Below, one piece after another: positions 8,174 to 42,621 of a DNA stretch of 64,000 nucleotides. Positions within the stretch are counted from its first letter, which is position 1, and each line of letters begins with the position of its first letter. Source of the DNA: Pyrinomonadaceae bacterium (GTDB lineage: Bacteria > Acidobacteriota > Blastocatellia > Pyrinomonadales > Pyrinomonadaceae); NCBI GenBank assembly GCA_021228405.1, contig JAJQRF010000005.1:248001-312000 (forward strand), written 5' to 3'. Both the position numbers and the translations under genes were made by a program. The notes beneath the pieces were generated by a model, which was not told the origin of the DNA, searched no databases, and saw only the letters and a list, made by a program, of their open reading frames with translations.

Positions 8174-8453
8174 TTTCTTTCCCCATGTATATTTTGTTAG
8201 GTTAAAACAATGAATTTATAGCATATTTTTTTCCAAAATCGAAAATTTCCCGTTTTTTTTGTCTTTCCATATTTTCGTGATTAATGATAAGTTCGTAGAA
8301 ACAAAGGTTTTTTCGTCGTTTGCCAAAAAACTCTTTACCTTTTTTCATTTTCATCATAAAATCTTTGGCGGCAAAGCAACTAATTTTTGGGGGTCGAACA
8401 TCATAGAAAGGGACGATTTTATAAATTCCAACGCTGACCTTTTAGGAGCAACT

Positions 8454-9107
8454 ATGGACTTAACCTCGGCGATCGAGCAAGATGTCGCTTTCGGGTTTGA
8501 GGAAAATGTCAGTTTTCCTGCGTTTCAAACTCCTGTTTTAGAAGAAAACTTAGCTGTCGATTCAACGGATTTATCATTGACGCAAAAAGCCGCGTCGGGA
8601 AACATTGCGGCTTTTGAAATGATCTATCAGCGTTATCATCGGCGCACGTATTCGCTTTGTCTGCGGATGACTAACAGCCAAACGGAAGCCGAAGACTTAA
8701 CTCAGGAAGTTTTCATTCAACTCTTTCGCAAGATCGGGAGTTTTCGCGGCGATTCGGCTTTTTCGACGTGGTTACACCGTTTGACGGTCAATCAGGTTCT
8801 AATGCACTTTCGTCGGCGAAGCGTGAAAAATGAAAAAACGACCGATGAAGGTGAAATGCCCGAACAAACCGTCAACGGCACGGCAAATCCGAATAAAATG
8901 CGCGTAGTTGACCGCATCGCGCTGAAAAAAGCGATCGGCGAATTGCCGCCGGGCTATAAAAATGTGTTTATTTTGCACGACATCGAAGGCTACGAACACG
9001 AAGAAGTTTCACGTCTTCTGGGTATTTCGGTCGGAACGTCGAAATCGCAACTGCACAAAGCGCGTCTCAAACTGCGCGGATTGTTAATTAAAGAAAATAA
9101 TCAATAA
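8454..9107 (+). CDS. RNA polymerase ECF-type sigma-70 factor
   Basis: I place the start at ATG 8454 because a clean AGGAG lies at 8444-8448; the frame stays open further upstream but without such a site. The 217-residue product has region 2 ([14 protein letters not shown], then [12 protein letters not shown]) and region 4 ([17 protein letters not shown] and the [24 protein letters not shown]). It recruits RNA polymerase to a dedicated promoter set. The next gene, 106 bp on, is its likely anti-sigma factor, and two DUF4097 proteins follow, an arrangement common in Acidobacteriota. The stimulus is unknown; the secreted downstream products suggest envelope response. Confidence 0.92.
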
Positions 9108-9213
9108 AAGATTTGCCGCTTAAGGCAACCCTTTAATTTCAAAGGCAATCTATTACAGGTGTAGTCAGTTATTTGGCGGAAAATTTTACAAAAACCAAAC
9201 TTTTAATAATTTA

Positions 9214-9963
9214 ATGAACTGCGAACATTGTCAGGAATTGATCAGTGCATTTTTGGACAACGAGCTCGATGAAACAAGCTCGGCAAACGTCCAAACGCAT
9301 CTCGGAATGTGTGCCGAGTGCGCTAAAGTGTGCGAAGATTTTGCGATGATCCTTGATTTTTGTCACTTTGAAGAACCTGTCAATGAAATCGTTCCGCCCA
9401 ATTCGCAAGCCCTCTGGTGCCGCATCAATAACGTAATCGAAAACGAAATCCAAACCGAACTTAAGATCGAAGAACAGAAAAAACAGGAAGAGATTAAAAA
9501 AGGCTGGTTTTCCAGAGTTTGGCAATTGTCGTTTTCGCAAGTCACTACTGCCGTTTTGGGAATCGCTTTGGTAAGTTCGCTTTTAACGATCGTCGGCATC
9601 AAAAATTACAATTCGGCGCAAACTGACAGTTTCGCTTCAAATTTTCCGGCTGACCCGACTTTTTTCGACAGAGCTTTGGCAAAAGTCGGTTTGATCGAAA
9701 CGCCGCAACAGATTCGTGAACGTAAAATGCAGGAACAAAAGGCGGCAATCGAATATTGGAATCAACGTGTTCAGGCGCGTCGTCTGCAATGGGATGAAAA
9801 TCTGCGCAAGGCTTTCGACCGGAATTTGAACGAGATCGATCAGGCGGTCAATGAATATACGTTAATTTTGCAGGAAAATCCGCATGATGAGCTTTCCGGT
9901 GAAATGCTCGATACGACGCTTAACGAGAAAATGGAGCTTCTGCGCGAATTTTCCGATCTATAA
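9214..9963 (+). CDS. Zinc-finger anti-sigma factor
   Basis: This 249-residue protein starts with a zf-HC2 domain: NCEHCQELISAFLDNEL, then HLGMCAECAKVC, giving the H-x3-C-x2-C zinc site. One membrane helix lies at about residues 112-130 (TTAVLGIALVSSLLTIVGI), and a charged, coiled-coil-like extracytoplasmic part of about 115 residues follows. The layout is that of single-pass ECF anti-sigma factors, which hold sigma at the membrane until a signal is received outside. It sits between the sigma gene (106 bp upstream) and a DUF4097 gene (35 bp downstream) in one operon. Pairing with the 8454 sigma is inferred from position. Confidence 0.85.
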   Translation: MNCEHCQELISAFLDNELDETSSANVQTHLGMCAECAKVCEDFAMILDFCHFEEPVNEIVPPNSQALWCRINNVIENEIQTELKIEEQKKQEEIKKGWFSRVWQLSFSQVTTAVLGIALVSSLLTIVGIKNYNSAQTDSFASNFPADPTFFDRALAKVGLIETPQQIRERKMQEQKAAIEYWNQRVQARRLQWDENLRKAFDRNLNEIDQAVNEYTLILQENPHDELSGEMLDTTLNEKMELLREFSDL

Positions 9964-32686: not shown

Positions 32687-34096
32687 ATGGACAAAGACGG
32701 TCTGAAACTCAAATTTGAATCGGGAACGCTGATTTTAGAAAACGCAGACGAAAGCGACGCGGTCCCGGGAGCTTTTGTTTGGGACGTGCGGACAAAACAG
32801 TTTCGTGCTCCGGCATACCTTTACCGCGAAGTCATTCTGGAGCTTATGCGCGCCAAAACGGAATATGAAGATTCGGCAAAAAATTATTCTTCGTTTGAAT
32901 TCAAACAGAAATTTCATATCAAACCGCGTCATTATCAAACCGATTCGATCGAAGCGTGGAAAAAAAATCAGCGTTGCGGCGTGATCGTTCTGCCGACGGG
33001 CGCGGGCAAAACTCACGTGGCGACGATGGCAATCGAAATTTGCGGACGGCAAACGCTGATCGTCGTGCCGACGCTCGATCTGATGAATCAATGGTTCGAT
33101 CTTCTGCTTTCGACCTTCAACGCCGAAATCGGCTTGATCGGCGGCGGATTTTATGAGATCGGGGCGATCACGGTCACGACTTACGCTTCGGCGTTTCGCC
33201 ATCAGGAACGGCTCGGCAATCAGTTCGGTTTGATAATTTTCGATGAATGTCATCACCTTCCCGGCGAAGGTTATAAATACGCCGCCGAATTTGCGATTGC
33301 ACCGTTTCGGCTCGGTTTGACCGCCACGCCCGAACGCACCGACGAAGGCGATTTACTGCTCGATGATCTGGTCGGAAAGATCGTCTATCACCTCGAAGCG
33401 CAACAGCTTGCGGGCGAATATCTGGCTGATTACACGCTCGAAAAGATCGAAGTCGAACTCACCGCGAACGAGCGCGAGGAATACAACCGCGAACGCGAGA
33501 TTTTTCGCAATTTTCTGCGCTCGAAAAACATTTCGTTCGGTTCGCCCGACGGGTGGAAAAATTTCGTGATGCTTTCGGCGCGAAGCGAAGAAGGCAGACG
33601 CGCGATGAAAGCCTTTCGCAACTCAAAAAAGATCGCGCTCGGAACGGACGATAAACTTCGTGTTTTGCAGGATTTATTGATTCGTCACCGCCACGACAAA
33701 GTTTTGATCTTCACTGCCGAAAACGAAATGGTTTACAAAATCTCGCAGGACTTCCTGATTCCCGCGATCACGCACGAAACCAACGTCAAGGAAAGAAAAT
33801 TCTGGCTCGACGCATTCAATAACGGCGACGTTTTGGCGTTAACTACTTCAAAAGTTTTGAATGAAGGCGTGAATATTCCCGACGCATCCGTAGCGATCAT
33901 CCTCTCTGGTTCGGGTTCGTCACGCGAACACATTCAGCGTTTGGGCAGAATTTTGCGGAAAAAGGATGACAAACAAGCGATTCTTTACGAAGTTGTCGCC
34001 CGCAATACGGCTGAGGAAAGAATCAGCGAACGCCGCACCGACGCGCGCCAATTTCACGACGCGAAACAAAATTCGGAAAGAAATTTATTCGGTTAA
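32687..34096 (+). CDS. XPB/ERCC3-like superfamily 2 helicase
   Basis: This 469-residue protein has SF2 motifs in order: Q-like RHYQTDSIEAW, Walker A LPTGAGKTH near 101, DECHH (motif II) near 185, LTATPERTD (motif III) near 210, NEGVNIP, and QRLGRILRKK (motif VI). The DECH box and short length match archaeal/bacterial XPB-type repair helicases. It unwinds DNA with ATP. The convergent neighbour at 34182 encodes a DUF790 protein, the family that includes Bax1, the XPB-associated nuclease of Archaea, so the pair likely works in a nucleotide-excision-like repair step. Confidence 0.9.
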   Translation: MDKDGLKLKFESGTLILENADESDAVPGAFVWDVRTKQFRAPAYLYREVILELMRAKTEYEDSAKNYSSFEFKQKFHIKPRHYQTDSIEAWKKNQRCGVIVLPTGAGKTHVATMAIEICGRQTLIVVPTLDLMNQWFDLLLSTFNAEIGLIGGGFYEIGAITVTTYASAFRHQERLGNQFGLIIFDECHHLPGEGYKYAAEFAIAPFRLGLTATPERTDEGDLLLDDLVGKIVYHLEAQQLAGEYLADYTLEKIEVELTANEREEYNREREIFRNFLRSKNISFGSPDGWKNFVMLSARSEEGRRAMKAFRNSKKIALGTDDKLRVLQDLLIRHRHDKVLIFTAENEMVYKISQDFLIPAITHETNVKERKFWLDAFNNGDVLALTTSKVLNEGVNIPDASVAIILSGSGSSREHIQRLGRILRKKDDKQAILYEVVARNTAEERISERRTDARQFHDAKQNSERNLFG

Positions 34097-34143
34097 ACGG
34101 AGTTCAGAGTCTATTCTTTAAAAGGCTTTTCGTTTAGCAATCG

Positions 34144-34157
34144 CCGCCTGAAGGCGG
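34144..34157. repeat. REP-like GC palindrome, second copy
   Basis: CCGCCT-GA-AGGCGG sits between the convergent helicase and DUF790 genes. Reading the other strand, TTTAGAGTCCCGCCTTC matches TTCAGAGTTCCGCCTTC at 11671-11687 with two differences. Outer bases AGAGTC (near 34107) and GACTCT (34158-34163) add a second, longer inverted repeat around it. Confidence 0.7.
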
Positions 34158-34181
34158 GACTCTAAACTGAAATTTATTTTC

Positions 34182-35378
34182 TTATATCAGCTTTTCCGCC
34201 ATTTCGATCAAGGCAAGCGGTTCGAGTTTGGTTTTGTAAAAAAGCACGTTCGGGCTTTCCCAGAGGGCTTCGTCGCGGCTTCCGCGCAATTCCTGCGAGG
34301 CAGAGAGAATAAATTTATCGTAATTTGCGGCGCGAAATTCTTCGATTCTTTTCAGTAAACTTTTCGGAGTCCAAAATCCTAAAATATCGAGATAAATCTT
34401 TTCGCCCGAAGCTTTGACCAAAACCAGATCGGGAATGAATGCCGTCTTTCCGAGATCGATGACTTCCCTGTTTTCCTGTAGATTCCATTCGCCCGCGCGT
34501 TTTTCAAAATTTCTTTTCAGTTTTTCGAGATCGGAATTCACATATTCGGGGTCGTCAAAATAAAAAGAAACCAGTTCGTCCTGTTCGCTCGTTAGCTCGT
34601 AAAAATAGTTTCGATCTTTCTGCGGAATTTCCGCCGACATTTTCCAATCTTTGCAAATCAGAAGCGCGGGCAGAAAAACCGCCATTCGGATTCCGTATTT
34701 CTGCGAACGGTGAAAAAGCGAAGCCGCGCCCGTCAGAGTGATTTCGTAACCGTTCACGGCGTTTCCGATCACCGAATGAATCAGCCCGAAATGCTTTATC
34801 CAGCCGAAAATTGCGCGGTAATTTGCCGTGTCCGACGGCGCAATACGGATTTTCATTTCGACGCATTTATAAAGCAGAGCCTGCGCCTGCGCGAGATTGT
34901 AGCGGTCAAGCAAATCCGCCGCCGAAATCGTTTCAAAAGAAATAAGTCTTTGCTGTGCGGAAAGATCGGCGTAAAGGTTGGCTTCGATCTCAGCCGATTC
35001 AAGCTGAAATTCGTTTTCGGCAACCGTTTGCAGGACGGCTTTCCGCTGACCGGAATTTGGCAAAACAGGTTGAAATTTACGAGCTTCGAGGAAGATTTTT
35101 TGACGGATTTCAAAAGGTTCGACAGCCGATTCGGTTTGAAATTCCGAACGGTCGTAGAGCAGTTTTATGAAACCGCGCAGAATTCTGTAATCCGTTCCGT
35201 TGCCGACATATTCTTCCAGTTCGCGCTCGATCTCGCCGCGTGTTTTCCCGATAAACTCCTCAAAAACGGCGATGATATTTTCGGCATCGGCGAGAAACGA
35301 TTGATTGTTTGTTTTGATGAGGCGCGGAAAAATTTTATCTCCGCGCCGCCAGCTAAAAGCCAGATCGGATGTCAGCAT
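34182..35378 (-). CDS. DUF790 / Bax1-like nuclease
   Basis: This 398-residue protein begins MLTSDLAFSWRRGDKIFPRL, the usual DUF790 (PF05626) start. The C-terminal third carries a nuclease-like pattern: FIPDLVLVKASGEKIYLDILGFW, matching the D...(E/Q)xK-type strands of restriction-fold nucleases, then RIEEFRAANYDKFILS. Bax1 proteins nick DNA and bind XPB helicase in Archaea. It faces the XPB-like helicase gene with an 85 bp gap holding a GC palindrome. Family assignment is by N-terminus, nuclease motif and context; activity is inferred. Confidence 0.82.
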   Translation of the reverse strand: MLTSDLAFSWRRGDKIFPRLIKTNNQSFLADAENIIAVFEEFIGKTRGEIERELEEYVGNGTDYRILRGFIKLLYDRSEFQTESAVEPFEIRQKIFLEARKFQPVLPNSGQRKAVLQTVAENEFQLESAEIEANLYADLSAQQRLISFETISAADLLDRYNLAQAQALLYKCVEMKIRIAPSDTANYRAIFGWIKHFGLIHSVIGNAVNGYEITLTGAASLFHRSQKYGIRMAVFLPALLICKDWKMSAEIPQKDRNYFYELTSEQDELVSFYFDDPEYVNSDLEKLKRNFEKRAGEWNLQENREVIDLGKTAFIPDLVLVKASGEKIYLDILGFWTPKSLLKRIEEFRAANYDKFILSASQELRGSRDEALWESPNVLFYKTKLEPLALIEMAEKLI

Positions 35379-35592
35379 TTTTTCACCTTATTTTCATTAA
35401 ATTTTACCAGAAAACGCCTCGCCGCCGCCGATCTTCGGTTTCTTTTTTCAAAACGAAGAAAATAAATTACAATTGCCCTAAAAAAATGGTAACACGCCGC
35501 TTTTTAATTCGTCTTTTAAGATATAAGAGCAGAAATTTATTTCGATGTTTATAAATTCATTCCTGATTTTTCAGTTTAATTATGTGCATTAA

Positions 35593-38250
35593 ATGAGTAA
35601 ATTCTCCCGCAAAATTTGTCGTCCGCTGTTTGCCTTTGCGCTGGTTGTTGTTTTCTGCGTCATTTCAGCCATTGCAGACGAAAAGGATTCCGCCGAAATC
35701 GCGCAAACTTTGAGGGATTTTTACACGAGCTATCAGACGAGAAATTTGACCGAATGGAAGAAATACTGGCACGACAATTCACCGGTTTCGACAGGACGCG
35801 AGCGGGGTTTCAAGGAATGGAATTTATCAGCCGAACCGCAAAAGATAGTTTCGATAAATGTCGAAAAAGGCTGGGATAAAACTTTTGCGGTCGTCGAGAT
35901 CGAAGTTTCTCCAAACGCGGAAAAAAGGCATCTCGGATTAATTAAAGAAAGAAACGAATGGAAAATCTGGCACGAATCGCCGCTCAATGATTATCTGTCG
36001 GCAAAAAAACTGACCGAGAAGAAATTTAATGACAATGCGGCGGTTGATCTGAGCGACGAAGGCATCGTCAGCGCGTTGAGTTGGATCGGCTACGAGTTTT
36101 ATGAAAAAAGAGAGTTTGAAAATTCGCTCGAAGTTTTCGCTTTAGCCGAAAAAGCCGCGCAGAAATCCGGCGATGCGGCGGCACGTGTCAGTTCGCTGAT
36201 CTTTTGCGGTCACGACCTGCTGGAATCGGGACAGGCGCAGAAGTCTCTGGAAAAATACAAACAAGCCTTTCAAATCTCGCAAACGGAAAATTTTCAAACG
36301 GGAACGATTCGCGCTTTGAGCGGCATCGGCAATGCGGCGAACGTCTTAGGACAATATTTCGAGTCGCGCAATGCGCAGGAAAAGCGGCTGGAAATGCTCC
36401 GAAAAACCAACAATAAAAACCGCATCGCCATTACGCTGAAAAATCTCGGAAACACTTATTTTTATCTCGGGGAATATGAAAAAGCCTTGAATTCGTATCT
36501 CGAAAGCGAAAAACTCGGATTTCAGGACATCGGTTTAATGCTCAATATCGCGGCGGTTTTGAGCGAAATCGGCAAATATACCGAAGCCGAAAAAAGATTT
36601 CAGAACGGGCTTTTGCTCGCCCGCGATGCCAATAATTCAGCCGAGATCGGACGTGCTTTGAACGGAATCGGTTTAGCCGCCTTCAAACGCGCTCAATTTC
36701 AGGAAGCGATCTCATTTTTCCGCCAGAGTTTGAAGGAAGGAACTGCGCTCGGCAAAGACGAGCAATCCAAAATCCTACTCAATCAAGGCTACAGTTTTTA
36801 TAAATTGCAGGATTTCGCCGCCGCTTCCGAACTGACCGAAAAGGCGATCGAGATTGCCAGAGAAACCGAAAGCCCCGAGCCGATCTGGTTTGGTCAATAC
36901 GTTTTAGGCAAAATCTTAAAAAAACAAAACAAAAATCCGCTTGCCAGGCAAGAGTTTGAAAAATCCGTCGGGTTTATCGAAGACTGGCTGAACAAAAATC
37001 AGAACGCCGACGGTCTAGAAAGTTTTTTCCAGGATAAAGTCGAGCCCTACAGAGAATTGATCGGTTTGCTGACCGAGCAGAACGAATATGAAAAAGCGTT
37101 ATATTACGCCGAATTGTCGAAAGCCAAAACGTTGCTCAAAGTCATCAAAGGCGTAAATCAAAAGCCCGAAACACAATCCGTTTTTTCTTTGACGACGGCT
37201 TCGGAACTATTGAAGGACAGCGAAACGGCTCTGCTCGAATACGTCGTCGCCGAAGATGTGGCTTATATTTTTCTGCTGACGAAATCGCCGAAAGCCAATT
37301 CGCCGCAGTTGACCGTTCGCAAAATTTCCGTCAGCCGCAATCAACTCGAAAATTCGATCATCAATTTAAGAAACAAATTAGCCGCCGAAAACTACGATTT
37401 TGCCGACCAATCCGCCCAACTTTACAACTTGCTGATTCGTCCGGTCGAAGACAAATTAGCGAATAAGAAAAAGCTCGTGATCGTTCCCGACAGCGTGATC
37501 TGGAGCTTGCCGTTTCAATCGTTAAAAGCAAATTCGACCGATTTTTTATGGGAACGATTTTCCATCACATATTCGCGCTCGCTGACTTCACTGATCGATT
37601 CGGCGAACCGTCACAGATCGCAGGAAATCAAAAAAACTTCACTTCTCGGCATCGCCAATCCGTCGTCCGCATTCGCCGAACAGATTCCGTTTGCAGAGGA
37701 AAGCATTAAAGAGATCAGCCCGTTTTACAATTCGGAAGAATCGCAGATTTTTACGGGAAATACGGCAACCGAAGAAAAGATCAAGGCGGTCATTTCGGAT
37801 TACGACATCGTTCATTTCGCAACACACGGTTATCTCGATAATCAAAGTCCGATGTCGTCTTACCTGCAACTGACGACAAACGATTTTTCCGAAAACGGCA
37901 AATTGGAAGCGAACGAAATTCAAAATCTGAAGATGAAAGCCGATCTCGTAGTGCTTGCCGGATGTGAAACGGGACGCGGCAAACTGCTTGACGGCGAAGG
38001 GCTTATCGGGATTGCGTGGGCTTTGGAAAAAGCCGGAGTGCCGACTTTGGTAACGAGCCAATGGAAAGTACGCGACCGTAACACGAAGGATTTAATGACC
38101 GAATTTCATCGTTTGTGGAGAAAAAGTCTGGCGGAAAACAAACCGCTCAGTGTTTCCGAAGCATTGCGCGAAGCAGCTTTGTCAATCCGCAAAAAGCATC
38201 CGCATCCGTTTTACTGGGCTGGCTTTGCGGTGATGGGAAACAATTTTTAG
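35593..38250 (+). CDS. Exported TPR-CHAT caspase-like protease
   Basis: This 885-residue protein has a signal peptide (FALVVVFCVISAIA, cleavage before DEKDS). A SnoaL/NTF2-like region covers residues ~35-140, and TPR repeats ~150-480 (for example NLGNTYFYLGEYEKALNSYL). A CHAT domain spans ~540-885: H745 in ATHG and C791 in AGCETG form the His/Cys dyad, followed by GIAWALEKAGVPTLVTSQW. CHAT domains are caspase-like proteases. The stop is 14 bp before a sigma-like gene, and a membrane zinc-finger protein follows, so it may cut the anti-sigma protein outside the cytoplasm. That link is inference. Confidence 0.88.
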   Translation: MSKFSRKICRPLFAFALVVVFCVISAIADEKDSAEIAQTLRDFYTSYQTRNLTEWKKYWHDNSPVSTGRERGFKEWNLSAEPQKIVSINVEKGWDKTFAVVEIEVSPNAEKRHLGLIKERNEWKIWHESPLNDYLSAKKLTEKKFNDNAAVDLSDEGIVSALSWIGYEFYEKREFENSLEVFALAEKAAQKSGDAAARVSSLIFCGHDLLESGQAQKSLEKYKQAFQISQTENFQTGTIRALSGIGNAANVLGQYFESRNAQEKRLEMLRKTNNKNRIAITLKNLGNTYFYLGEYEKALNSYLESEKLGFQDIGLMLNIAAVLSEIGKYTEAEKRFQNGLLLARDANNSAEIGRALNGIGLAAFKRAQFQEAISFFRQSLKEGTALGKDEQSKILLNQGYSFYKLQDFAAASELTEKAIEIARETESPEPIWFGQYVLGKILKKQNKNPLARQEFEKSVGFIEDWLNKNQNADGLESFFQDKVEPYRELIGLLTEQNEYEKALYYAELSKAKTLLKVIKGVNQKPETQSVFSLTTASELLKDSETALLEYVVAEDVAYIFLLTKSPKANSPQLTVRKISVSRNQLENSIINLRNKLAAENYDFADQSAQLYNLLIRPVEDKLANKKKLVIVPDSVIWSLPFQSLKANSTDFLWERFSITYSRSLTSLIDSANRHRSQEIKKTSLLGIANPSSAFAEQIPFAEESIKEISPFYNSEESQIFTGNTATEEKIKAVISDYDIVHFATHGYLDNQSPMSSYLQLTTNDFSENGKLEANEIQNLKMKADLVVLAGCETGRGKLLDGEGLIGIAWALEKAGVPTLVTSQWKVRDRNTKDLMTEFHRLWRKSLAENKPLSVSEALREAALSIRKKHPHPFYWAGFAVMGNNF

Positions 38251-38264
38251 GGGAATTTTGAGCA

Positions 38265-39092
38265 ATGATGCAGATCGAAAGTAACAATTCAAACTTGCGC
38301 AGAACGAACGATCCGTTGCTGATTCCTTTTTTAACTTCGGAAACCCGCGAAAATTCGCAAATTATTCTGCACAAGCTTTTTGAAGAACACGCCGACCCGA
38401 TCTGCAACAGCATCGTCAGTTTTAGGACGAGAAATCTGTTCGGCTTGAGCTATGTCGAAAAAGAGATTTTGCGCGAAGATTTGAAACAGGAAGTGCGCCT
38501 GAAAATTCTCGCACACCTGCGCTATCTGCAAAACAATCCGACGACCGAACCGATCTACGATTTCCGCAATTACGTGGCGCGAATCACGCATAATCTGCTT
38601 CACGACTATTTTCGCGCCGAGTTTCGTTCGGCGGAAACGACCCGCTCACGCGATATTCAGCTTCCGAAAAGCGAAATCAAAAAGAACGAATGGCAGGAAT
38701 TTGAACTTCCAGTTTCGGAAAATGTCCAATTATTGCCCGAATTTGCCGTCAATATTGAAGATGAAGAAGAGCGCATCATTCAATTACAAACGATCTGGCA
38801 GGAACTCTGCAAGCTTCCCGCGCATCAATGCGCTTCGTGGCTTTTGAAAATCGCCGATAAAAACGACGATTCGACGCTGAAATGGCTTCCCGTTTTCCAA
38901 ATCGCTACGATTCGCGAGATCGCTTCGGCAATCGGGCTGGCTCCCGAAAAACTTGCTTCGATCTGGTCGGAACTGCCTTTGCAAGACCAAAAGATCGGCG
39001 AATTGTTCGGCGCGTCGCAACGTCAGGTGATAAATTGGCGCAAATCCGCCAATGAATGTTTACAACGCAGAATGCGAAAAAAACTTAAATAA
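38265..39092 (+). CDS. Sigma-70-like transcription factor
   Basis: A double ATG at 38265/38268 starts a 275-residue protein. DLKQEVRLKILAHL and FRNYVARITHNLLHDYFRAEF match sigma region 2. A C-terminal HTH, GELFGASQRQVINWRKSANEC, corresponds to region 4. A middle domain of about 80 residues separates them. Its layout resembles the regulator at 2609. It starts 14 bp after the TPR-CHAT gene with an AGGGG-like site inside the overlap, so the two are translated together. A partner anti-sigma (39179) follows after 86 bp. Confidence 0.75.
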   Translation: MMQIESNNSNLRRTNDPLLIPFLTSETRENSQIILHKLFEEHADPICNSIVSFRTRNLFGLSYVEKEILREDLKQEVRLKILAHLRYLQNNPTTEPIYDFRNYVARITHNLLHDYFRAEFRSAETTRSRDIQLPKSEIKKNEWQEFELPVSENVQLLPEFAVNIEDEEERIIQLQTIWQELCKLPAHQCASWLLKIADKNDDSTLKWLPVFQIATIREIASAIGLAPEKLASIWSELPLQDQKIGELFGASQRQVINWRKSANECLQRRMRKKLK

Positions 39093-39178
39093 TAATGACG
39101 TTTTTTGCGGTCGAAATGGTAACATCCGTTCGCCGTCTGCGTCTTTTATATTAAACGTCGGAAAATTTAATATTTTTA

Positions 39179-40099
39179 ATGAGAGCACACTTAAACCACA
39201 TCGAAATCTTAAAATACAGGCAGGCAACGCTACCACCGCTCGAACTGCTCGAAGTCGATTGTCATTTGGAAAATTGCGACCAATGCCGAATGAAGCTCAG
39301 ACAAAATCAGGAATTGGCGATACTTTACAATTCATTTTTTGAACCGCTGAACGGCGCAACCGAGGAAGAAAACTCCCGATTGCTTAAAATCCGCTTCAAA
39401 GAACGCTGGAGGCAACTGAAATCTTTGCATTTTTTTCCCGTGGGAACACTTCTCACTAACTGGCGGCGGCAAACCGCTCTGGCGGGTTTGGTGTTCCTGA
39501 TTGCAAGCGGATTTTTGATCTTCAGCCTGACCAAGAATGAAACAAACGAGGTCGCGGGAAATATCGTGCCGACTCAGGAAAATAAGACTGCGGGCGAAAA
39601 TCAAATTATCACGCCGACGACGGTTGAGCCGGTCGAAACGGTCGAGCCGCCGAAAATTTATTCAAAGAGCGTCAAAGCGGCACCAACCGATAAGGATTTG
39701 ATCGCGAAGAAAACATCTCCGACGGCTAAAAAACCCGAACCCGATCTGGTTGTCAAAGTAGATTCGCTCGAAACCGACCGGAGCAATACTTTATCGAACG
39801 ATGCAAACCCGAAAGAAGCGGTGAACGCACCGTTCAAAGTCGAGATAAAACCTCTGAAAAAAGGTTTAAGCATCGATTTTTCCGACATCGAAAAAGCTGA
39901 TGAATATGAGATTTACATTGCAGAAATGCCCGATTTCATTACCGTCAGCCGCGAAAAAACAAAAAGATCGAGATCGTCGATTTCGCTTAACAAACTGGCA
40001 AAGGGAAAAGATTACGTTTTACAAATTACGGCATTGAATCAAGGAATGCCGATTCAATCGGTCAAGAGAAAGTTAAATCTCAAGACTGCTCCAAATTAA
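39179..40099 (+). CDS. Membrane zinc-finger protein, likely anti-sigma
   Basis: This 306-residue protein has a cytoplasmic N-terminus with C28-H29-x3-C33-x2-C36 (VDCHLENCDQC), the zinc pattern of zf-HC2 anti-sigma domains. One membrane helix follows at 99-118 (TALAGLVFLIASGFLIFSLT). The outer part is first a Pro/Thr-rich linker (TPTTVEPVETVEPPK), then a fibronectin-like domain with EKADEYEIYIAEMP. Its position after the sigma-like gene and topology suggest it tethers that factor. The long extracytoplasmic domain could be the cleavage substrate of the exported CHAT protease. No homologue is known to me. Confidence 0.7.
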   Translation: MRAHLNHIEILKYRQATLPPLELLEVDCHLENCDQCRMKLRQNQELAILYNSFFEPLNGATEEENSRLLKIRFKERWRQLKSLHFFPVGTLLTNWRRQTALAGLVFLIASGFLIFSLTKNETNEVAGNIVPTQENKTAGENQIITPTTVEPVETVEPPKIYSKSVKAAPTDKDLIAKKTSPTAKKPEPDLVVKVDSLETDRSNTLSNDANPKEAVNAPFKVEIKPLKKGLSIDFSDIEKADEYEIYIAEMPDFITVSREKTKRSRSSISLNKLAKGKDYVLQITALNQGMPIQSVKRKLNLKTAPN

Positions 40100-40154
40100 A
40101 TAAACAATTTCCGGGCTTATCAGGATAATTGTTTAAAACTGAGGATAAAACCTG

Positions 40155-40814
40155 ATGAATACTAAAACAAAGTGCTTATTATTTTTTGTAGTCCCGTTTT
40201 TTGTCGGAATTTTCTTAATAAACTTATCTTTGATAAAAACTATCAACGCCGGCGGACCGACCACAACTTTGTCGCATACCAACGACAGACCCGATTCTTA
40301 TGCTATGTGTTCAGGTCATACTTCCGATACTCATTCGGTCGGCGTGATGTCGAGCGGAATCTGGATGCCGCAGGTTACGACGGAATCCGACTGGATTACC
40401 GTGCTTAATACGGAACCGGTCCGCGGCATCGGCTTCGTTCAATACCGCGTCGCCAAAAACTTTACGCCGTATATCAGGGCAGGTGTAATTACGATCGGAA
40501 ATCAAAATTTTACGATTTTGCAGGAACCTTTCGACGAAACAAAACCCTGCCCGGTCGAAACCAACCCTGCCGATGTCAGACTTTCCAATTCAGGCGGAAG
40601 CGTTGCTTTGGAAATGGATGACCACGGTTTGAATCAAAATTGGGAAATAGCCGCCAGTCAGGTCGAATGGCTGTTTCTCGGACAGCCGACGGGACGCGGT
40701 TCAGGTGCGACAAGTTTTGAAATTTTACTAAACAATACGGGCGAGCCGCGAATGACCACCGTAACGATTGCGGGCAAAACAATCCCGATCATTCAAGGAG
40801 GAAGTAACAGATAA
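40155..40814 (+). CDS. Secreted BACON-like domain protein
   Basis: This 219-residue protein has an N-terminal hydrophobic signal (FFVVPFFVGIFLINLSLIK). Two Ig-like repeats follow, of the BACON style: SDWITVLNTEPVRGIGFVQYR with RAGVITIGNQNFTILQE, and SQVEWLFLGQPTGRGS with RMTTVTIAGKTIPIIQ. BACON domains bind glycans or proteins outside the cell; the ligand is unknown. It is 55 bp after the anti-sigma-like gene and is followed by a long hairpin, ending the CHAT operon. Confidence 0.7.
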   Translation: MNTKTKCLLFFVVPFFVGIFLINLSLIKTINAGGPTTTLSHTNDRPDSYAMCSGHTSDTHSVGVMSSGIWMPQVTTESDWITVLNTEPVRGIGFVQYRVAKNFTPYIRAGVITIGNQNFTILQEPFDETKPCPVETNPADVRLSNSGGSVALEMDDHGLNQNWEIAASQVEWLFLGQPTGRGSGATSFEILLNNTGEPRMTTVTIAGKTIPIIQGGSNR

Positions 40815-40839: not shown

Positions 40840-40874
40840 AGCCTGAATTTCATATAGCCGATGAAATTCAGGCT
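40840..40874 (+). terminator. Long perfect hairpin after the CHAT operon
   Basis: AGCCTGAATTTCAT (40840-40853) and its reverse complement (40861-40874) make a 14 bp stem around ATAGCCG. No T-run follows directly. A second stem, GATAAGATG (40905-40913) with CATCTTATC (40929-40937), lies 31 bp further on. The pair fills the gap before the Tat genes and could also act as an RNA-stability or regulatory structure. Confidence 0.65.
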
Positions 40875-41107: not shown

Positions 41108-41818
41108 ATGAAGGAAAATGACAATCAGGATAAGAAAAAAAAGAAAAATGACCGCCGCGATTTTTTGAAGAAAGCGGCAATAGGAACGCTCGGGGCTTCG
41201 GCATTGATCGCCGGTCTGGGCACTTCGGAAAAGGCTTTTGCAAGACTGCTTTCAATGAAAACCAATGCCCACATCGACGAATTTTTCCAACGCGTTCGTT
41301 CATCGCGGCTTCTCCCGCAAGCCGATGCCAATCTGGTTCAGAGTATCGATAATTTCGTTCAGGCGGCTTCGCAGAATGATGCAATCGTCAGCAATGCCAA
41401 CCGCTTGCTTCAACATTTTGCCGACCGTGTTGCTTTGACATCGCGGGAACAACGGACCGTTTTGGGAATCCCCAAATCTGCCAGCGATCTGTTGACGGGC
41501 GGCTATCTGGCTTCACTTCAAGCATTGAGAACCGCGCCGCTTTCGACGCGGGATTTCGACGGTTTGCTGTCCGATGTAGATTCGTTGATAAATCGCCTCG
41601 AACCCGAATTTCTTTCGCGCGCGCTCCCGCAGCTTCAAATGGAAATGAGCAACGACTCAGAATTTTCCGCCCAGATCGGCAGAGCGACGGAAAATATGAG
41701 TTCGGCTTTCGGCAGACTTGCGCCGCCGATCGAGATCGGGGCGACCTTTGAAGTGCCGACCTGGGTTGCAGTTGTCGCAACTGTGGTAATCATCGTGCTC
41801 ATCATTGTTCTGAAATAA
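41108..41818 (+). CDS. Tat-signal protein with hydrophobic C-terminal tail, unknown (copy A)
   Basis: The ATG 41108 start gives 236 residues. The N-terminus has a twin-arginine signal: RRDFLKK, then AAIGTLGASALIAGLG, then AFA. The middle 170 residues are alpha-helical, Ala/Ser-rich, and carry GYLASLQALRTAPL. The C-terminus is a 20-residue hydrophobic run (VAVVATVVIIVLIIVL) ending in a single Lys. It is paralogous in layout to the next gene. Tat export plus a C-terminal anchor suggests a folded, possibly cofactor-bearing protein held in the membrane by its tail. I know no family. Confidence 0.7.
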   Translation: MKENDNQDKKKKKNDRRDFLKKAAIGTLGASALIAGLGTSEKAFARLLSMKTNAHIDEFFQRVRSSRLLPQADANLVQSIDNFVQAASQNDAIVSNANRLLQHFADRVALTSREQRTVLGIPKSASDLLTGGYLASLQALRTAPLSTRDFDGLLSDVDSLINRLEPEFLSRALPQLQMEMSNDSEFSAQIGRATENMSSAFGRLAPPIEIGATFEVPTWVAVVATVVIIVLIIVLK

Positions 41819-41904: not shown

Positions 41905-42621
41905 ATGTCGAAAAAAAATAACAAAGAAGAAAATTCAACCGATAAATCGAGACGCAGTTTTATCCGCAATGCGGCATTAGGTGCCGCCGGAATCACGCTC
42001 GGATTGACGCTGACCCGCGCCGAAAAAGCATTGGCAAAATTTGCATCGCGCCACGCTGACGATTTCTTTTCAAAAGCAGGCGGTTTAACTCCGGGAAGAG
42101 GCGATAGTTCCGCCTTCACATCGGTTTACGAACAGGTAAATTCGATGATGGAAAGAAATCCCGAATTCAAGGCAAACGCCGACCGCATTTTTGCCAATGT
42201 GATGAACAATACCAGTCGTTTCGCTTTTACAAATCCTAAAACGAGCTTAGGTTTGCACACCGACGTTACCAATTTGCTGGCAACGGCTTATCTGGGCGGT
42301 TTGTCGAGCTTGCGCAGTAATGTTCCGACCAGCGATCAAATCGCCGGAATTCTTTCCAATCCGTCGAGCGTTGACCGTTTTATCGAAAGCGGTTTCGTAA
42401 ATAACCTTTACGAAAGATCGAACGTGGAAGCGGAAACCAACGAAACATTCAGGGCGAATCTGAACACGGCTGTTTCCCAACTCGAAGGCGTTGTCGGAAG
42501 ACAAAGGGAAAATGATTGCTGGGTTCCGGTTTATCAAAACGGCGTACTTGTCGGATATGAACCGTGCTGGGTCGTCGTCGTGGTCGTGGTGATAATCATC
42601 ATCGTGTTAATTCTCAAATAA
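41905..42621 (+). CDS. Tat-signal protein with hydrophobic C-terminal tail, unknown (copy B)
   Basis: This 238-residue protein starts at ATG 41905 with AAGGAG at 41889-41894. It has RRSFIRN, then AALGAAGITLGLTL, the twin-arginine signal, followed by a helical region with AYLGGLSSLRSNVPT that parallels GYLASLQALRTAPL in copy A. The C-terminus is a pure Val/Ile tail (VVVVVVVIIIIVLIL) plus Lys, preceded by a Cys pair (NDCWVP and EPCW) absent from copy A. It begins 86 bp after copy A. Unknown role; the pair follows the CHAT/sigma locus but behind a hairpin. Confidence 0.7.
   Translation: MSKKNNKEENSTDKSRRSFIRNAALGAAGITLGLTLTRAEKALAKFASRHADDFFSKAGGLTPGRGDSSAFTSVYEQVNSMMERNPEFKANADRIFANVMNNTSRFAFTNPKTSLGLHTDVTNLLATAYLGGLSSLRSNVPTSDQIAGILSNPSSVDRFIESGFVNNLYERSNVEAETNETFRANLNTAVSQLEGVVGRQRENDCWVPVYQNGVLVGYEPCWVVVVVVVIIIIVLILK

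Follow-up and report, generated by a model that had tools for sequence, protein, structure and literature searches.

An exported CHAT protease, an ECF sigma factor, and a membrane zinc-finger protein form a conserved gene triad in Acidobacteriota: a possible caspase-type transmembrane sigma switch

In a stretch of 64,000 nucleotides from the genome of a Pyrinomonadaceae bacterium (Acidobacteriota; contig JAJQRF010000005.1, positions 248,001 to 312,000, here called the window), three neighboring genes encode an exported protease-like protein with TPR repeats and a CHAT domain (CHAT), an extracytoplasmic function (ECF)-type sigma factor (SIG), and a single-pass anti-sigma-like zinc-finger protein (ZF). 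We are confident that CHAT, SIG, and ZF constitute a module. As for its function, we lean slightly towards a transmembrane ECF module in which CHAT would serve as the site-1 protease acting on ZF and SIG would exert feedback on the locus. Together with a BACON-like gene the triad covers window coordinates 35593-40814, and the four open reading frames, their places, and the gap of 14 bp between CHAT and SIG are exactly as described in a first-pass annotation of this DNA. The features of the triad are as follows.

35593..38250, + strand: CHAT, exported TPR-CHAT protein of 885 residues (Pfam CHAT, E 3e-66)
37825..37827, + strand: codon of His745 of CHAT, predicted catalytic, conserved without exception in 16 triad CHATs and a second, divergent set
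37963..37965, + strand: codon of Cys791 of CHAT, predicted catalytic, invariant in the same 16 triad CHATs and the second, divergent set
38265..39092, + strand: SIG, ECF-type sigma factor of 275 residues (TIGR02937; structure model)
39179..40099, + strand: ZF, single-pass anti-sigma-like protein of 306 residues (zf-HC2 in the family, invariant H29/C33/C36)

The linkage of the three genes was examined around SIG relatives drawn from 60 relatives, 84,980 species genomes, and 396 genomes of the phylum. Among the 82 distinct SIG genes with neighborhoods, ZF is adjacent and on the same strand in 72. For 42 distinct SIG loci the sequence extends at least 6 kb to either side; in this subset ZF is the direct neighbor of SIG in 39 and a CHAT-TPR gene is found no more than 6 kb from SIG in 35, against a chance expectation of about 4% per locus (derived from the 15 CHAT genes in the window's 5.7 Mb genome). 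The proposed association of protease, sigma factor, and anti-sigma factor is thus real and conserved far beyond chance. The refuting outcome named beforehand, a lack of conservation among relatives, did not occur. Of the gene neighborhood as first described, it is this linkage that recurs, whereas the exact order and strand vary and the BACON-like gene does not belong to the set: CHAT lies downstream of SIG either convergently (30 cases) or on the same strand (21), and less often upstream (5), which makes the arrangement in the window (CHAT first, same strand) a minority. The triad is seen in Acidobacteriota (Pyrinomonadaceae, other Blastocatellia, Bryobacterales, and Terriglobia) and Verrucomicrobiota; further members come from genomes binned as Chthoniobacterales, Armatimonadaceae, Abditibacteriales, and Acidimicrobiia, and single metagenome bins may be mislabeled.

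A tree of 93 CHAT domains groups the SIG-linked CHATs apart from others encoded in the same genomes, with 7 label changes versus about 28-31 in shuffles and none as low in 500. Furthermore, distances among CHATs correlate with those among ZFs after SIG is taken into account (partial r 0.38 over 34 loci), and the plain correlation reaches r 0.93 in 12 loci of a Pyrinomonadaceae genus referred to here as g9. Nearest-neighbor agreement among the CHAT, SIG, and ZF trees is moderate (21-26 of 46), and strict co-inheritance as a unit is therefore not claimed. The g9 loci (L150-L162, about 8 kb each) are four-gene operons of SIG, ZF, a secreted S9 prolyl oligopeptidase, and an exported CHAT, often with several per genome and up to three seen. 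Another genome of the same class as the window (G042) carries about 60 CHAT-domain genes.

CHAT starts with a classical signal peptide (MSKFSRKICRPLFAFALVVVFCVISAIADEK), after which follow TPR repeats (residues ~155-518) and the CHAT domain (~600-884). By a strict rule, 36 of 46 CHAT relatives have a signal peptide ahead of the TPR part, and 44 of 46 when calls made by eye are added, in line with the earlier suggestion that the protease is outside the cytoplasm. An anchor facing the cytoplasm, which had been named as a refutation of that suggestion, is unlikely because a hydrophobic N-terminus that stays uncut would also place TPR-CHAT outside. Between signal peptide and TPR repeats (window 35670-36000, residues ~27-136) an NTF2-like stretch, modeled at low confidence, was recognized by eye; the CHATs of loci L031, L038, and L043 have a similar stretch that is absent in others.

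The His745/Cys791 pair pointed out in the first-pass annotation is intact in the window, and both residues are invariant columns in the alignment of 16 triad CHAT proteins. The pair is equally invariant in the second, divergent CHAT set, which includes Verrucomicrobiota and genus g9. In the AlphaFold2 model of CHAT (predicted local distance difference test score, pLDDT, 78) the closest structural relative is Csx29 (Z 31), and entries 8rot and 8rw5 of DdvA, an anti-sigma factor discussed below, rank 6-7 in a Foldseek search. The protein is thereby a member of the CHAT (clan CD) group as defined by fold and His/Cys dyad. The strict conservation of both residues suggests that catalysis matters, and cutting of the outer part of ZF would be the likeliest act.

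SIG is matched weakly by Pfam when the window copy is taken alone (region 2, E 0.003); TIGR02937 (sigma70-ECF) recognizes it with E 9e-10 and matches 21 of 21 aligned family members. Regions 2 and 4 extend over residues ~14-127 and ~165-275, respectively. The AlphaFold2 model (pLDDT 85.5, 61 sequences) consists of two domains and retrieves sigma factors as all of its top 50 entries. It superimposes on region 4 of Escherichia coli sigma-E bound to −35 DNA (2h27) with 2.2 Å over 69/69 residues and on region 2 of SigW with 3.0 Å over 94 residues. With the folds of regions 2 and 4 and no region 3, SIG is, as modeled, an ECF sigma factor. Most SIG relatives are longer (350-450 residues): between the two domains they contain an insert, missing from the window copy, with similarity (E 0.005) to the winged helix at the N-terminus of the delta subunit of RNA polymerase; long SIGs (e.g., L036:5220-6317) have extra sequence within region 4 as well. 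Descent from the sigma factor of type III-E CRISPR systems is not claimed, as the corresponding NCBIfam model matches just one of 21 members, and weakly.

The third member, ZF, was described earlier as a single-pass zinc-finger protein, which agrees with its make-up: an H-x3-C-x2-C zinc finger (H29-C33-C36) and one membrane helix (~99-117) preceded by positive charges, predicted to be oriented N-in, so that the zinc finger is cytoplasmic and the linker and fn3-like domain are outside. Although zf-HC2 is weak in the window ZF, it is found in 19/21 aligned members; H29, C33, and C36 are invariant in the alignment, and the membrane helix is present in 44/46 relatives. ZF proteins of the family form carry two zinc fingers and cross the membrane with a helix near residue 150; a proline-rich linker then leads to an fn3-like domain and a TPR-like tail. 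When compared with the Protein Data Bank (PDB), the family profile matches the anti-sigma factor ChrR, the zinc-finger domain of DdvA, and 3hug_B (which we take to be RslA), with RsiW below E 0.1. By its HxxxCxxC finger, single membrane helix, and gene position beside its sigma factor, ZF belongs to the ZAS/zf-HC2 type. Because its profile matches anti-sigma factors and its gene lies next to SIG, ZF presumably binds SIG.

Two candidate promoters were found at the locus.

35484..35518, + strand: candidate SIG-dependent ECF-type promoter, copy 1, AAATGGTAACA-N15-CGTCTTTTA, before CHAT-SIG
39114..39148, + strand: candidate SIG-dependent ECF-type promoter, copy 2, same sequence, before ZF-BACON

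They are identical (0 mismatches), and the 5.7 Mb genome contains no further exact copy. Their shared score of 20 compares with at most 15 in same-locus controls (379 pairs), and one pair among 930 cross-locus controls scored 19. Known ECF promoters are likewise built of an AAC at −35 and a CGTC at −10 separated by 16 bp. Since the same candidate promoter precedes both CHAT and ZF, the locus probably consists of two transcription units instead of the single operon first proposed. A wider regulon was not apparent in the window's genome: there were no sites at 1 or 2 mismatches, and at 3 mismatches there were fewer sites (13, counting the two exact ones) than for the reversed control (42).

In the mechanism that would best connect these parts, the cytoplasmic zinc-finger domain of ZF would hold SIG at the membrane, and the exported TPR-CHAT would be a signal-gated, caspase-type site-1 protease acting on the outer part of ZF. 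The TPR domain would take up a signal or dock on ZF, upon which the His/Cys dyad would cut the outer region. The removal of ZF would be completed, and SIG released, by general proteases of the membrane and cytoplasm (e.g., an M50 site-2 protease, for which a gene is present). Freed SIG could then transcribe CHAT-SIG and ZF-BACON via the two identical promoters, closing a feedback loop. We regard the cutting of ZF by CHAT, and the release of SIG through it, as the likeliest mechanism, at about even chances.

The nearest known counterpart is the DdvS/DdvA system of Myxococcus xanthus (PDB 8rot, 8rw5, 8rlz), in which an ECF sigma factor is likewise held by a single-pass zinc-finger anti-sigma factor with an outer TPR-CHAT part. 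Entries 8rot and 8rw5 are titled as the DdvA transmembrane anti-sigma factor and carry the molecule name "CHAT domain-containing protein"; DdvA is also the best PDB match of a profile built from the divergent triad CHATs (E 3.5e-6), with H and C kept. In DdvA a single chain of 991 residues comprises zinc finger, membrane helix, and TPR-CHAT, whereas the triad divides them over two proteins: ZF brings an fn3-like outer domain of its own, and TPR-CHAT is exported as a protein by itself, in most cases from its own transcription unit. The occurrence of parts fused in one system and separate in another is a classical sign of joint function, and by this sign the parts of the window locus probably work together. 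A paper from 2018 reportedly tied DdvS/DdvA to type III-B CRISPR-Cas and proposed the large C-terminal part of DdvA as a signal sensor. The ddvS promoter requires DdvS, which is activated once DdvA has been inactivated by an unknown signal (PMC4374960). Judged by its sequence, the window locus resembles a transmembrane DdvA divided over separate proteins, with a protease that looks active. DdvA-like fusions were not found among the listed zf-HC2 matches of 40 relatives; one candidate, L227, was rejected, its long frame being a FecR-type protein.

Craspase, the type III-E CRISPR system (Cas7-11, Csx29, Csx30, and CASP-sigma) that had been cited as precedent, does place a TPR-CHAT protein beside a sigma factor and its inhibitor, but it is not the sole precedent, and DdvA is nearer. 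Csx29 cuts Csx30, an inhibitor of an ECF sigma factor, and thereby frees CASP-sigma; the locus also carries its own sigma sites (PMC10028731). The same three roles are proposed here, and no structure matches the CHAT model better than Csx29. However, Craspase is cytoplasmic and activated by RNA, whereas the window CHAT carries a signal peptide and, in place of Csx30, a zinc-finger protein of the membrane is the putative inhibitor. The Craspase set of Cas7-11/gRAMP, CRISPR array, and Csx30 beside TPR-CHAT was not seen at the locus: no Cas or Csx30 genes were present among the neighbors scanned, CRISPR arrays not having been searched for separately. Lacking both the single chain that defines DdvA and the Cas parts that define Craspase, the locus is not classed as a member of either.

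Further likenesses exist to the RseA/DegS/RseP and RsiW-type systems, in which a single-pass anti-sigma factor with an outer domain and a cytoplasmic sigma-binding part is combined with an autoregulated ECF sigma factor and a two-step cut logic, the latter two being proposed for the window locus as well; their site-1 protease is a serine or unrelated protease, whereas the candidate for this cut here is of the caspase clan. Separase shares the TPR-like superhelix and CHAT/caspase-type domain (Z 26-28 with the CHAT model) but is eukaryotic, nuclear or cytoplasmic, and cuts cohesin. In the literature searched, which did not cover major subscription papers, CHAT in connection with ECF sigma factors turned up for Craspase only, and no description of a CHAT-SIG-ZF locus was found.

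The strongest alternative, which we nevertheless consider unlikely, is that of a co-sensor without cutting: exported TPR-CHAT would bind a ligand and the outer domain of ZF and alter ZF by contact, in the way supposed for the covalently attached outer part of DdvA, and its protease activity would serve another purpose or self-processing only. The presence of TPR-CHAT inside the anti-sigma chain of DdvA makes coupling possible without a cut in trans, and in ZF relatives a TPR-like repeat, suited to docking, is often found at the end of the outer region, but His and Cys are strictly kept in all aligned triad members and both are found in DdvA too. Somewhat less probable still is that CHAT is an output, made by an ordinary envelope-stress SIG/ZF pair as an exported protease for other substrates such as prey, toxins, or misfolded proteins. 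This would fit the candidate SIG promoter before the window CHAT and the secreted S9 peptidase in the g9 operon; in most relatives, however, CHAT is a convergent separate unit that has no promoter motif in common with SIG, and the DdvA fusion and the co-divergence of CHAT and ZF point to CHAT as part of the switch. That the genes are chance neighbors, or an artifact of genomes that carry 2 to 60 CHAT genes, is refuted by the neighborhood counts; the clustering of SIG-adjacent CHATs in the tree also speaks against it, as does the recurrence of the triad in more than one orientation and in a second phylum.

Several points weigh against a site-1 protease function of CHAT. Cleavage, SIG-ZF binding, and the activity of SIG are all inferred, the linker of ZF shows no obvious conserved cut site common to all members, and the literature searched gave no demonstration that the CHAT domain of DdvA is a protease. 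The window ZF has a shorter outer domain than its relatives, with one zinc finger and no TPR tail. A few SIG-ZF loci (e.g., L037 and L074) are without CHAT nearby. M50 proteases are, to our knowledge, found in nearly all bacteria, and the presence of one proves nothing by itself. Finally, relatives yielded no promoter doublet or shared sigma promoter above the level of controls in a fixed-pattern scan, by enriched gapped words, or in within-locus matching with corrected starts, so that the promoter argument concerns the window only.

Two further features lie at the 3' end of the probable ZF transcription unit.

40155..40814, + strand: BACON-like exported protein of 219 residues (Pfam BACON, E 0.0017)
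40840..40874, no strand: 14-bp perfect inverted repeat 3' of the BACON-like gene, likely unit end

The BACON-like protein, with its weak Pfam match and two BACON-like motifs, had been counted as the fourth gene of the set. As the motif recurs in just 2 other proteins among 1098 around SIG relatives, the gene is a local passenger of the ZF transcription unit outside the conserved triad. At locus L037 (5471-8119), a large exported BACON-repeat protein is encoded divergently from the SIG of a SIG-ZF pair. Downstream in the window, two neighboring and distantly similar proteins (41123-41818 and 41905-42621) carry twin-arginine signals and have C-termini with a hydrophobic run ending in Lys (WVAVVATVVIIVLIIVLK and WVVVVVVVIIIIVLILK); Pfam gives no family above cut-off for either. 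They were rejected as module members, no relatives of them having been found near SIG homologues and a strong hairpin setting them off. Elsewhere in the window, an XPB-like helicase with an XPB damage-recognition domain is convergent with a DUF790 protein (32687-35378), DUF790 corresponding to Bax1, the nuclease that partners archaeal XPB, and a second, ordinary pair of ECF sigma factor and zf-HC2 anti-sigma factor is located at 8259-9963.

The usual context of CHAT proteases is immunity and cell death; for a use in gene control, a single CRISPR subtype is the known example. The triad suggests that a protease of the animal caspase type may help to switch on bacterial genes from outside the cell membrane. 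Tentatively, and at somewhat less than even chances, a periplasmic CHAT protease may serve a transmembrane ECF anti-sigma factor as its dedicated site-1 protease in a widespread switch, from which the fused DdvA and the cytoplasmic, RNA-gated Craspase would be derived or to which they would be parallel. The locus is simple and testable and offers its own candidate reporter promoters. If the proposed function holds true, a conserved, CRISPR-free, extracytoplasmic module would make caspase-type proteolysis a general route for transmembrane signals in bacteria and would hint at the origin of the Csx29-Csx30-CASP-sigma arrangement.

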